Below are positions 3,931 through 12,964 of a stretch of 64,000 nt of DNA, piece by piece; position 1 is the stretch's first letter; every line of letters starts with the position of its first letter. This stretch comes from Agrobacterium fabrum str. C58 (GTDB lineage: Bacteria > Pseudomonadota > Alphaproteobacteria > Rhizobiales > Rhizobiaceae), in the NCBI RefSeq assembly GCF_000092025.1, contig NC_003062.2, positions 2,230,001 to 2,294,000 of the forward strand, given 5' to 3'. Made by a program: the position numbers and the translations under genes. The notes below the pieces were generated by a model. The model was not told where the DNA came from. It saw nothing but the letters and a program-made list of their open reading frames with translations, and did not search any database.

Positions 3931-4923
3931 ATGGGCATGCTGGTGGAAGGCGTATGGAAAGACGTCTGGTACGACACCAAGGAAACCAAGGGGCATTTCA
4001 AGCGTAGCGCCTCGCAATTCCGCAACTGGGTCACGGTGGATGGCGCAGTCGGCCCTTCCGGAGAGGGCGGCTTTGAGGCGGAGAAGGATCGTTACCACCT
4101 CTATGTCTCCTTCGCCTGCCCGTGGGCGCACCGCACGCTGATCTTCCGCAAGCTGAAAAAGCTGGAAGACCTGATCTCGGTCTCCGTGGTTGATCCGCTG
4201 ATGCTGGAAAACGGCTGGGAATTCAAGCCTGAAGGCGAGCGCACGCCGGGCGCGACGCAGGATCACCTCTTCGGCTCCTCCACGCTCTGGCAGGTCTACA
4301 CCAAGGCGGACCCCACCTATTCCGGACGCGTCACCGTGCCGGTCCTGTGGGACAAAAAGCGCGGCACCATCGTCTCCAATGAATCGGCGGAAATCATCCG
4401 CATGTTCAACGTCGCCTTCAACGATCTCACCGGATCGGACGCGGATTATTACCCCAAGGCGCTGCGCGCCGAAATCGATGCGCTGAACGACGTCATCTAC
4501 GACACCGTCAATAATGGCGTCTACAAGGCCGGTTTCGCCACCACGCAGGATGCCTATCAGCAAAATGCGGTGAAGGTGTTCGAAACGCTGGATATGCTGG
4601 AAGACCGCCTGAAGGACCGGCGCTTCCTATTCGGCTCAGAGCAGACGGAAGCGGACTGGCGCCTGTTCACCACGCTGGTCCGGTTCGACCCCGTCTATGT
4701 CGGCCATTTCAAATGCAATATCCGCCGCATCCACGACTATCCGCACCTGACCGGTTACCTGCGCGATCTTTACCAGACGCCAGGCGTGCCCGACACGGTC
4801 GACATGCGCCACATCAAGGAACATTATTACCGCAGCCACCGCACCATCAATCCGACCGGCATCGTGCCCATCGGCCCGGAACTGGACCTGACCATGGCCC
4901 ATGGCCGCGAGGCGCTCTCCTGA
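3931..4923 (+). CDS. glutathione S-transferase of the glutathionyl-hydroquinone reductase (Xi/ECM4-YqjG) type
   Basis: This 330-residue protein matches the Xi-class GSTs, which reduce glutathionyl-hydroquinones with glutathione. The diagnostic catalytic motif CPWAHR is at residues 63-68, preceded by a long N-terminal extension. SNESAEIIRMFN gives the glutathione gamma-Glu contact (ES motif), and the alpha-helical C-terminal domain includes DWRLFTTLVRFDPVYVGHFKCN. The start is fixed by AAGGAG eight bases before the ATG at 3931; an upstream in-frame extension to 3763 lacks family similarity. It probably detoxifies quinones in the cytoplasm. No operon partner is visible. Confidence 0.9.
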   Translation: MGMLVEGVWKDVWYDTKETKGHFKRSASQFRNWVTVDGAVGPSGEGGFEAEKDRYHLYVSFACPWAHRTLIFRKLKKLEDLISVSVVDPLMLENGWEFKPEGERTPGATQDHLFGSSTLWQVYTKADPTYSGRVTVPVLWDKKRGTIVSNESAEIIRMFNVAFNDLTGSDADYYPKALRAEIDALNDVIYDTVNNGVYKAGFATTQDAYQQNAVKVFETLDMLEDRLKDRRFLFGSEQTEADWRLFTTLVRFDPVYVGHFKCNIRRIHDYPHLTGYLRDLYQTPGVPDTVDMRHIKEHYYRSHRTINPTGIVPIGPELDLTMAHGREALS

Positions 4924-11330: not shown

Positions 11331-11975
11331 TCACCAGCGCAGCAGGCGTGAACCGGCAAAAGCGCCTATCACGCCGGTCAGGAGAATACCGAGCGAGTAC
11401 CAGATCAGCACAAAAGCCATGCCGTTTTCGGTGCAGAACCACGAATAGACCCAGGCCCCCGCCGCACCGGCCGCAAGGCCGGCGGCAAAACCCGCAAGCG
11501 TGGGATCGGCGGGAGCCGAATGCCTGAGAACCGCAAAATTTGCCAGAAACAGGGGCAGTGCGAAAGCAACGATAAGGAACGGGCAGTGCAGCGCCGATGA
11601 TCCGAGAATGAGAGTGCGATAGGTGCCCGGCAGGGCAAATCCAAGCTGGACCAGCGCGATCACCGCCATGGCGACAAAAATCACGGCAAGCCAGGCGAAC
11701 AGGCCGCCTCTGTCGCCATCCGGCCGCGCAAGACGCATGACGGCCAGAAATGCCGTCAGGGCGAGCAGGGCATTATAGGCGGATTTGACCCAGAAACCGG
11801 GTTCGGTCATCGCATCGCTCATATCCCTGCGTAGCCCCAGAATCAGGAACATCAACAGGAGCGAGAGGCCGAGTGCCGGCAAGGCTGCGCGCGCCAGCCT
11901 GCGCTCCAGCGCAGAAGCGGGGACGGGTTTCAGATCACCCGCCAGTTTTTCGATGATGTCTTCCGTCTTCCTCAT
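11331..11975 (-). CDS. nrsF: NrsF-family (DUF1109) membrane anti-sigma factor
   Basis: This 214-residue protein has a short cytoplasmic N-terminus and about six membrane helices. Two cysteines, Cys131 (ALHCPFL) and Cys181 (WFCTENGMAF), occupy the positions described in Caulobacter NrsF, where a conserved Cys pair is needed for metal/oxidant sensing by its partner sigma factor. The terminal motif CTENGMAFVLIWYSLG is characteristic of DUF1109. The gene overlaps the ECF sigma gene by 4 bases, so they are translationally coupled. By family analogy it holds the sigma factor at the membrane until stress. Confidence 0.88.
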   Translation of the reverse strand: MRKTEDIIEKLAGDLKPVPASALERRLARAALPALGLSLLLMFLILGLRRDMSDAMTEPGFWVKSAYNALLALTAFLAVMRLARPDGDRGGLFAWLAVIFVAMAVIALVQLGFALPGTYRTLILGSSALHCPFLIVAFALPLFLANFAVLRHSAPADPTLAGFAAGLAAGAAGAWVYSWFCTENGMAFVLIWYSLGILLTGVIGAFAGSRLLRW

Positions 11976-12526
11976 ATGTCCCCCCGCAACTTTGCCGCCA
12001 GGACTTTCAGCGTTCTGTGAATGCCGACCCTCGCCGCAAGCTCGGTCTGGCCGGATTTCTCTGCCGCTTCGGCGATCGACTGGCCTTCGAGCTTCACCCT
12101 TCGGATGAGGTCGCGCTGCCGCTCGGGCAATTCATTGAGCAGCCGCTCCACATCCATGCGGGCCGTGACCGCGTCGACGGACGACTCCGCTTCCAGTGTT
12201 TCATCGAGTTCGACTTCCGAAAACATGCGCCTCCCCCTGCCCCTGTAGTGATCGATGAGCTTGTAGCGCGCTATCGAGAAGAACCACGCCGTAAACGGTC
12301 GCGCACGGTCATAGGTCTCCCGCTTGGCGTGAAGCGACAACAGGGTTTCCTGCACAAGATCTTCCACATCGGCTCGAGCCGCATCGGCCATGCGCCGACC
12401 GTAATAGGCGACCAGCAGTCGCCTCAAGGCGTGGAGCAAATGCCTGTAGGAGGCTTCGTCCCCATCAAGGGAACGCAGCATCAGCATTTTCAGTGTTTCT
12501 TCCGAGGGGCTGCCAGTCATCGTCAC
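11972..12526 (-). CDS. ECF RNA polymerase sigma factor, SigF-like, partner of NrsF
   Basis: The 184-residue protein has sigma region 2 (ADVEDLVQETLLSLHAKR, then RPFTAWFFSIARYKLIDHYR) and region 4 (LPERQRDLIRRVKLEGQS, IAEAAEKSGQTELAARVGIH). Region 1 and 3 are absent, as in ECF sigmas, and the DUF1109 gene directly downstream identifies the SigF/NrsF class. The frame opens with GTG at 12526 and ATG at 12520; an internal ATG at 12487 (MLMLRSLDGD) is also possible. The promoter-like TGTAAC-N17-CGAA just upstream suggests autoregulation and leaves only a few bases of 5' UTR if the first starts are used. Confidence 0.9.
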   Translation of the reverse strand: MTMTGSPSEETLKMLMLRSLDGDEASYRHLLHALRRLLVAYYGRRMADAARADVEDLVQETLLSLHAKRETYDRARPFTAWFFSIARYKLIDHYRGRGRRMFSEVELDETLEAESSVDAVTARMDVERLLNELPERQRDLIRRVKLEGQSIAEAAEKSGQTELAARVGIHRTLKVLAAKLRGDI

Positions 12527-12536
12527 TATCGGGTTA

Positions 12537-12563
12537 TTCGCAAATCGGCAGGGTATTGTTACA
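12537..12563 (-). promoter_or_regulatory. putative ECF-sigma promoter of the sigF-nrsF operon
   Basis: Read on the minus strand, TGTAAC (12558-12563) and CGAA (12537-12540) are separated by exactly 17 bases. This resembles the GTAACC-N16/17-CGAA type recalled for Caulobacter SigF, and an identical arrangement faces the divergent gene. Confidence 0.65.
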
Positions 12564-12615
12564 TAGTGGCTTTAAAAAAATCTCGCCCGAACTTGTCGTC
12601 ACAAACGCGTGAAGA

Positions 12616-12642
12616 TGTAACGACCGGCTGGTCGCATCCGAA
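12616..12642 (+). promoter_or_regulatory. putative ECF-sigma promoter of the MXKDX gene
   Basis: TGTAAC (12616-12621) and CGAA (12639-12642) are separated by 17 bases, the same sequence and spacing as the divergent promoter at 12537-12563. It lies 65 bases before the ATG of the MXKDX gene. Confidence 0.65.
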
Positions 12643-12706
12643 TGGACAATCGTGAACCCCCGGCGCAATGCCGGCGGACACGCAACGACATCCAGAGGAG
12701 ACCTTC

Positions 12707-12964
12707 ATGACCCGCATCTTTACCGCCATTGCCACCGCCTCCCTCTTTTCCGTTCTGTCCTTTGCAGGCATCGCCCATGCCGACAGCATGAAAACCGATA
12801 CGATGAAGAAGGATACCATGCATAGTGACATGATGAAGGCGGAGACGATGAAGAAAGACGGCATGTCCATGACCAGCAAAAAAGACTGCATGCACAAGGC
12901 CGGCATGCAAAAGGACAAGATGAAAAAGGCCGACATGATGAAGGCCTGCGACACGATGAAATAA
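12707..12964 (+). CDS. pentapeptide MXKDX-repeat protein, secreted, Met/Lys-rich
   Basis: An 85-residue protein: a signal peptide of about 25 residues (ending GIAHA) is followed by pentads MKTDT, MKKDT, MHSDM, MKAET, MKKDG and degenerate copies to the end, the pattern named MXKDX. The mature part is full of Met and Lys with two His and two Cys, which suggests a periplasmic metal chelator or buffer, although the family has no proven function to my knowledge. ATG at 12707 follows GAGGAG; the frame extends 13 codons upstream without a ribosome site. It is divergent from the sigma/anti-sigma pair and shares its promoter type. Confidence 0.85.
   Translation: MTRIFTAIATASLFSVLSFAGIAHADSMKTDTMKKDTMHSDMMKAETMKKDGMSMTSKKDCMHKAGMQKDKMKKADMMKACDTMK

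Follow-up and report, generated by a model that had tools for sequence, protein, structure and literature searches.

The locus is part of a 64-kb window, the whole stretch of DNA that was analyzed, in a genome of 5.67 Mb, and its nearest named relatives are found in Agrobacterium-group strains. On the minus strand, an ECF sigma factor gene (11972..12520) is followed by an nrsF-like anti-sigma factor gene of 214 aa (11331..11975), the start of which overlaps the sigma stop by 4 bases. The sigma protein carries regions 2 and 4 only, as expected for an ECF sigma factor (Sigma70_r2, E 2.8e-13; r4_2, E 7.3e-8), and has ECF sigma factors of solved structure among its relatives. In a by-eye alignment, its ATG at 12520 is in line with the N-termini of relatives; an alternative GTG is present at 12526. 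The adjacent protein belongs to the NrsF family of anti-sigma factors (PF06532, E 2e-66), with a score of 136.1 bits that is below the NCBI NrsF equivalog cut-off of 300, and it carries Cys131 and Cys181, which are invariant in all 14 aligned NrsF proteins.

Divergent from these two genes, on the plus strand, lies an MXKDX (MrpX/BcrX-like) gene of 85 aa (12707..12964), preceded by the ribosome site AGAGGAG at 12694-12700. This is the one MXKDX match in the genome. Its likeness to MrpX and BcrX is by way of the TIGR02953 family (E 1.5e-24, 85.8 bits, cut-off 41) and not by direct alignment, and in a Pfam search the protein matched no family. A signal peptide of 25 aa (identified by eye) is followed by an MxKDx-rich mature part of 60 aa with 14 Met, 15 Lys, 9 Asp, 1 Glu, 2 Cys, and 2 His. 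A predicted methionine-rich protein is thus encoded behind the divergent promoter of the sigma gene. Next after it, on the opposite strand and convergent, is clpP (PF00574, E 8e-67).

The mature part consists of a variable-length tract of MxKDx-like units and an ungapped C-terminal stretch of about 27 residues. In an alignment of 31 rows, drawn from 50 sequences with the window included, the block from K58 to K85 (12878..12961, plus strand) is gap-free, and Cys61 and Cys81 are separated by 19 residues in every row. The first-pass annotation described the protein as a Met, His, Cys-rich repeat; this wording suits the N-terminal part of the mature protein, whereas the C-terminal end is this two-Cys block. 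Of the 59 MXKDX proteins extracted for the window and the named loci, 58 have both Cys residues in position (55 by pattern; L172, L173, and L192 on inspection by eye); the exception is the damaged L158, and L219 is outside the 59. Among MXKDX proteins from loci outside the family of the window, 20 of 25 are without Cys in the part that was counted. Some of these (L089, L096, L104, and L106) are long pentapeptide arrays without Cys, and tblastn gave no NrsF match within 1.5 kb of them.

The two divergent promoters and the extent of the regulon

TGTAAC-N17-CGAA was claimed in the first-pass annotation to precede both divergent genes, and both sites are indeed present. The sigma-nrsF promoter (12537..12563, minus strand) has its −35 element TGTAAC at 12558-12563 and its −10 element CGAA at 12537-12540, while the MXKDX promoter (12616..12642, plus strand) has TGTAAC at 12616-12621 and CGAA at 12639-12642, with a 17-base spacer in both. 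The sigma start codon at 12520 is just 16 bases downstream of CGAA, and the sigma leader must therefore be short. That such a pair rarely arises by chance is borne out by shuffling of the window: the mean number of TGTAAC-N15..19-CGAA sites was 0.19, and only two of 100 shuffles reached two sites anywhere. Moreover, the two real sites share one intergenic stretch in the correct orientation, unlike the shuffle counts, which were taken window-wide. The 64-kb window has no TGTAAC-N15..19-CGAA beyond these two.

The elements are conserved among relatives. From 30 loci, 20 of the window type were taken for a footprint alignment, leaving out loci without MXKDX and those of a divergent type; the start pattern missed L058, L063, and L072, and two of the rows had the same sequence, which reduced the set to 16 distinct Agrobacterium loci including this genome. 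In these, 18 of 20 element columns are invariant versus 81 of 176 other columns (Fisher p 2e-4). The sigma and the MXKDX promoter each have nine of 10 element columns invariant, compared with six of 17 and none of 17 spacer columns, respectively, and 75 of 142 columns are invariant in the intergenic region outside elements and spacers. The exceptions are L074, where the sigma −10 element is CGTA and not CGAA, and L060, where the MXKDX −35 element is CGTAAC. Parts of the block between the two −35 elements (12564..12615) are also near-invariant in the same 16 loci, an A-tract and a TCAC-N6-GTGA motif (AAAAAATCTCGCC and TCACAA-CGCGTGA); the two promoters do not explain them.

The identical N17 spacing holds for this strain but is not general. 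In congeners, the spacing is N16 in all 21 readable sigma promoters and N17 in 18 of 20 readable MXKDX promoters; the extra spacer base in the sigma promoter here is one T within a short T run. The named Agrobacterium loci, whose genomes are partly shared with the congener set, have N16 in 10 of 10 sigma promoters. The wider named sample comprises 67 loci (L166, at a contig end, was dropped) and gives 68 rows with the window; it was picked by two NrsF peptide patterns and favors near relatives. N16 is found in 45 of its 59 readable sigma promoters and N17 in 42 of 60 readable effector promoters. By the strict pattern, both sites are readable in 52 of the 67 named relatives; the pattern fails for the sigma site in eight of the 67 and for the MXKDX site in two of 59.

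The divergent site also follows its gene. In the named loci, it is present in 57 of 59 with MXKDX versus three of eight without. Of the 26 genus genomes with MXKDX, 23 have a readable divergent site, and it is absent in the three NrsF-positive genomes without MXKDX (G168, G170, and G171); in G154, G157, and G179, MXKDX is present and the strict pattern is found at neither gene. In a family sample read with a looser pattern that allows CGTA, the site is present in 21 of the 22 loci that carry a slot gene (a gene behind the divergent promoter) and in none of the five that do not. These counts omit L030 (contig end) and L034 (partial slot gene), and L047, with an unrelated-looking solute-binding gene in the slot, was placed among the five; if that gene is accepted as a slot gene, the counts become 21 of 23 and none of four.

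These data bear on whether the two sites are chance matches or belong to another regulator. Genome-wide, the motif shows no enrichment: YGTAA-N17/18-CGAA has 72 matches versus 190 for the reversed control and is thus rarer, a point in favor of chance. However, the conservation of the sites, their orientation, and their loss together with the gene speak strongly against this explanation, as do sites of this kind mapped experimentally in Brucella (PMC8315932) and Caulobacter (PMC3511200), and we regard it as extremely improbable. Since the elements are conserved and the divergent site tracks its gene, the prediction that the sigma factor controls both itself and the MXKDX gene, made already in the first-pass annotation, is well supported by footprinting, by the joint presence and loss of effector gene and promoter, and by the experiments made directly on the Brucella counterpart, discussed below.

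The genome has four exact TGTAAC-N17-CGAA sites, two of which are the pair described here. Nineteen further sites of the form YGTAAC-N16/17-CGAA include no convincing promoter. Sixteen of 17 lie inside mechanical ORFs of at least 120 aa, some of which may not be genes, and the seventeenth (C1:1420594) is upstream of an uncharacterized ORF; the site in L004 overlaps the probable start codon of a gene more than 2000 codons long, and that in L005 is antisense within a LysR-type gene. Three sites with TGTAA only, considered as further promoters, were no better. The pattern search for a wider regulon thus gives no support for more targets and suggests that the regulon is the sigma/nrsF/MXKDX locus. 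The earlier description of the module as self-contained fits this result, although expression data could still enlarge the regulon. A motif search with N18 also returned four identical 28-base copies (C1:60704, C1:2514639, C2:1045776, and C2:1308178; L001, L009, L013, and L015), which are probably part of a repeated element.

Related circuits and the linked reductase

The site upstream of sigma conforms to (T/C)GTAAC-N17-CGAA (or N16 in relatives), the published ECF16 consensus, and the same two genes occur in Brucella; the locus is therefore a module of a known kind, ECF16 sigma/NrsF/methionine-rich protein, where the ECF16 assignment derives from the NrsF linkage and the promoter. Its layout resembles that of BcrS/AbcS-bcrXQP in Brucella melitensis, which is described as having an ECF16 sigma factor, a two-Cys NrsF-family anti-sigma factor, a divergent MXKDX gene, and TGTAAC...CGAA before both units (PMC8315932). 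The same report gives the BcrS promoter as (T/C)GTAAC-N17-CGAA, with 5′-RACE on both divergent units, and describes a more than 16-fold drop in bcrXQP transcripts in the sigma mutant, induction of bcrXQP by HOCl, and lowered HOCl survival upon its deletion (PMC8315932). The Azospira suillum SigF/NrsF/MrpX/YedYZ system (Melnyk 2015), as other papers describe it, is likewise composed of a sigma/anti-sigma pair and a methionine-rich periplasmic peptide, and it serves in hypochlorite defense.

The first-pass annotation drew its analogy from Caulobacter SigF/NrsF. This system is related but not the closest, and the studied counterparts in Brucella and Azospira, with their link to hypochlorite and methionine oxidation, had been missed. 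Caulobacter crescentus SigF is reported to use GTAACC-N16-CGAA promoters, located before sigF and a neighboring operon, and its NrsF residues C131 and C181 were shown to matter (PMC3511200). Its targets comprise DUF2282/DUF692 operons plus an MsrPQ-type pair, with Cr, Cd, and Cu as inducers (PMC3511200, PMC8224329), and sigF was described as not strongly autoregulated under metal stress (PMC3511200). Within the Rhizobiaceae, Sinorhizobium meliloti RpoE7/EcfR7 is also an ECF16 sigma factor with a divergent target operon; that operon is SMb20527-SMb20530, likened in the paper to Caulobacter CC3254-CC3257, and no inducer is reported, RpoE7 and its target promoter giving no response to H2O2, Cd, or chromate (PMC6180224). 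The ECF16 pair EcfF/OsrA of Bradyrhizobium japonicum shares the two Cys (Cys129/Cys179) and autoregulation, with methionine sulfoxide (MetSO) reductases in its regulon, but it is described as responding to H2O2 with a wider regulon, and no MXKDX gene was found in the accessible part of that account (PMC3420878). The circuit studied here thus has a closer known counterpart than Caulobacter, and the instructive difference is the missing linked reductase.

In Brucella, bcrX is reported to be cotranscribed with msrQP-type genes (PMC8315932), and the methionine cycle of Azospira suillum uses YedYZ (Melnyk 2015). In contrast, the MXKDX gene of the window stands alone, with no linked cytochrome b and molybdenum oxidoreductase of the MetSO reductase type beside it. 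Of the 60 rows with MXKDX (window and named loci), 42 have a cytochrome b561 gene and a molybdenum oxidoreductase gene after it. The pair was found by tblastn with the pair of L119, its proteins match PF01292 and PF00174, and we equate it with the YedZY/BcrQP partners of the studied systems; MXKDX in L197 and L219 was read by eye and counted. The other 18 rows, the window included, are without the whole pair, although L209 retains part of one of the two genes. Where MXKDX is missing, the whole pair occurs in no row, and pieces are present in two of the eight rows concerned (L171 and L207). In the plasmid of Neorhizobium sp. SOG26 (L210), a Cys-rich DUF326 protein is encoded at 4258-4587, about 420 bases after MXKDX, at the place that the reductase pair takes in relatives.

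In a maximum-likelihood tree built from sigma and NrsF, the reductase pair changes state at least six times among the MXKDX-positive rows. The count gives no direction, the tree is midpoint rooted, and the long rows L219 and L192 are unsurely placed. The deepest-branching rows have the pair, which makes loss rather than gain the simpler reading. Six divergent congeners (G154, G157, G166, G167, G178, and G179) have MXKDX, a PF00174-type gene nearby, and a more distant NrsF with 45-47% identity.

A probable loss of the reductase raises the question of whether the remaining gene is a relic that has been drifting since. Three of the 29 NrsF-positive congeners are without MXKDX, and in Rhizobium nepotum (L158/G160) the frame looks damaged, with a match to residues 18-55 only and the first Cys missing, as decay would predict. 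Yet stop-free matches that span at least 79 of 84 residues were obtained for 25 of the 26 copies in congeners, and the promoter is under constraint in the 16 Agrobacterium loci. The Agrobacterium MXKDX proteins are under purifying selection: the median dN/dS of the mature part is 0.134 over 134 pairs from 17 distinct window-type genes, and no pair exceeds 1, which argues that the orphan gene is not decaying. Hence, a relic is disfavored, and we consider it very unlikely. A protein that is kept under selection without a linked enzyme provides a natural test of the need for dedicated recycling, since in the published model the oxidized methionine-rich protein is recycled by a dedicated YedYZ/BcrQP reductase.

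An unlinked candidate enzyme is encoded elsewhere in the genome. This genome has one clear PF00174 (MsrP-type) gene, 344 kb from the locus and with a PF01794 (MsrQ-type) neighbor, plus one marginal match; at least one PF00174 match is present in all 39 genomes of the genus. MsrPQ was considered as a co-regulated target and set aside, as no ECF16 site was found upstream: the 3.5-kb MsrPQ locus has no GTAAC-N15..19-CGAA, and the 900 bases before msrP have no forward GTAA-N14..21-CGA. TACGGT repeats lie upstream of msrP (L018, about 1050-1068) and may point to a separate MsrPQ regulator.

Proposed function of the MXKDX protein and the exchangeable slot

The genes, the promoter sequences, their conservation, and the missing linked reductase are direct observations. 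From these, we consider it probable that the locus works as an envelope-stress switch, in which an ECF16 sigma/NrsF pair regulates its own expression and has a single secreted methionine-rich protein, MXKDX, as its local output, an oxidant sink without a linked reductase. At rest, the membrane protein NrsF would hold the sigma factor; binding and release of sigma by NrsF have two-hybrid or mutant support in published work on Brucella, Bradyrhizobium, and Caulobacter. Periplasmic stress would modify NrsF at Cys131/Cys181, and perhaps at Met, and thereby release sigma; this Cys pair is reported to be important in Caulobacter and Bradyrhizobium and is aligned in Brucella. The freed sigma factor would then start transcription at both divergent promoters, that of its own operon and that of the MXKDX gene. 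By analogy with the relatives, from which sigma release, inducer, and scavenging are all inferred, the exported MXKDX protein would use its Met and Cys to take up reactive chlorine or another oxidant of methionine or thiols and spare envelope proteins. In the absence of a linked YedZY/BcrQP reductase, new synthesis would replace the oxidized protein, or the unlinked MsrPQ would reduce it. An oxidant sink is the most likely role by comparison with the HOCl work in Brucella and, second hand, in Azospira.

The signal need not be an oxidant, however, since Caulobacter SigF targets are reported to respond to Cr and Cd but not to the peroxides, paraquat, and diamide that were tested (PMC3511200), and to respond also to Cu (PMC8224329). 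The weak autoregulation of sigF under metal stress in that species and the silence of S. meliloti RpoE7 toward three stressors likewise speak against a simple oxidant switch. Moreover, the Cys pair of the MXKDX protein is superfluous for a pure methionine sink, which counts against a simple oxidant-sink reading. Copper is the main rival to an oxidant as the signal, and metal buffering gains in interest because of the bufferins found in the slot of relatives, the Cys block of MXKDX, and the Cu induction of Caulobacter SigF. The same switch may drive a bufferin-like periplasmic copper/thiol buffer, with Met, His, and the Cys pair binding Cu(I) or soft metals and with no need for a reductase.

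The slot content of relatives bears on this alternative. In 29 further family loci, those with the highest NrsF scores in the 52 genomes that were positive out of 151 searched, the sigma/NrsF/promoter layout drives a bufferin pair (DUF2282 and an MNIO enzyme) in 16, MXKDX with cytochrome in three, DUF1223 in two, and MsrA in one; the remaining seven have no whole bufferin, MXKDX, DUF1223, or MsrA gene in the slot. The bufferin combination of a DUF2282 precursor and a PF05114 enzyme was not found in the slot of the window locus. Besides the frequency of bufferins, a copper/thiol buffer is favored by the published Cu induction of the Caulobacter SigF regulon and the Cu sensitivity of the sigF mutant (PMC8224329), by the invariance of both MXKDX Cys in the 31-row alignment, by the 18 rows without the linked pair and the repeated changes on the tree, and by the Cys-rich DUF326 gene in L210. 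Nevertheless, a MetSO-reductase-type pair accompanies MXKDX in the majority of rows, and the HOCl phenotypes described for Brucella bcrXQP point to an oxidant; we therefore regard the copper/thiol buffer as rather unlikely and prefer the oxidant sink.

More tentatively, the two functions might be combined. ECF16/NrsF could be a plug-in switch that offers one promoter slot for interchangeable envelope protectants, with the MXKDX protein of the Rhizobiaceae as a two-part buffer and more than a methionine sink that YedZY recycles. Its Cys block would let it act alone (e.g., on Cu(I) or thiol oxidants), which would account for the repeated loss of the linked reductase. This is a possibility that we hold to be doubtful, albeit worth keeping in mind: an exchangeable slot brings together two stress responses, hypochlorite defense and copper-binding bufferins, with a single family of sensors. 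Published work already describes sigma and NrsF genes next to bufferin clusters (PMC12452194), and we found no MXKDX in the main text of that report. Within one literature collection, no title or abstract dealt with MXKDX without its reductase or with a swap of outputs.

The association between MXKDX and NrsF extends across genomes. In the genus, 26 of 39 genomes have MXKDX, in all cases beside NrsF; it is present in 26 of 29 NrsF-positive and in none of 10 NrsF-negative genomes (p 4.5e-7, uncorrected for kinship). In a sample of the order, 59 of 347 genomes have an MXKDX match, and in at least nine of those 59 (G000, G029, G047, G463, G402, G454, G443, G362, and G311) NrsF lies within about 3 kb. 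One locus (L122, in G128) has a sigma gene beside MXKDX that tblastn matches in two frames, with no adjacent NrsF match; the NrsF match of that genome is on another contig, together with bufferin genes (L052). Finally, G175 has a second, distant NrsF copy at C3:64123 (L082), with an unlinked PF00174 gene 13 kb away.
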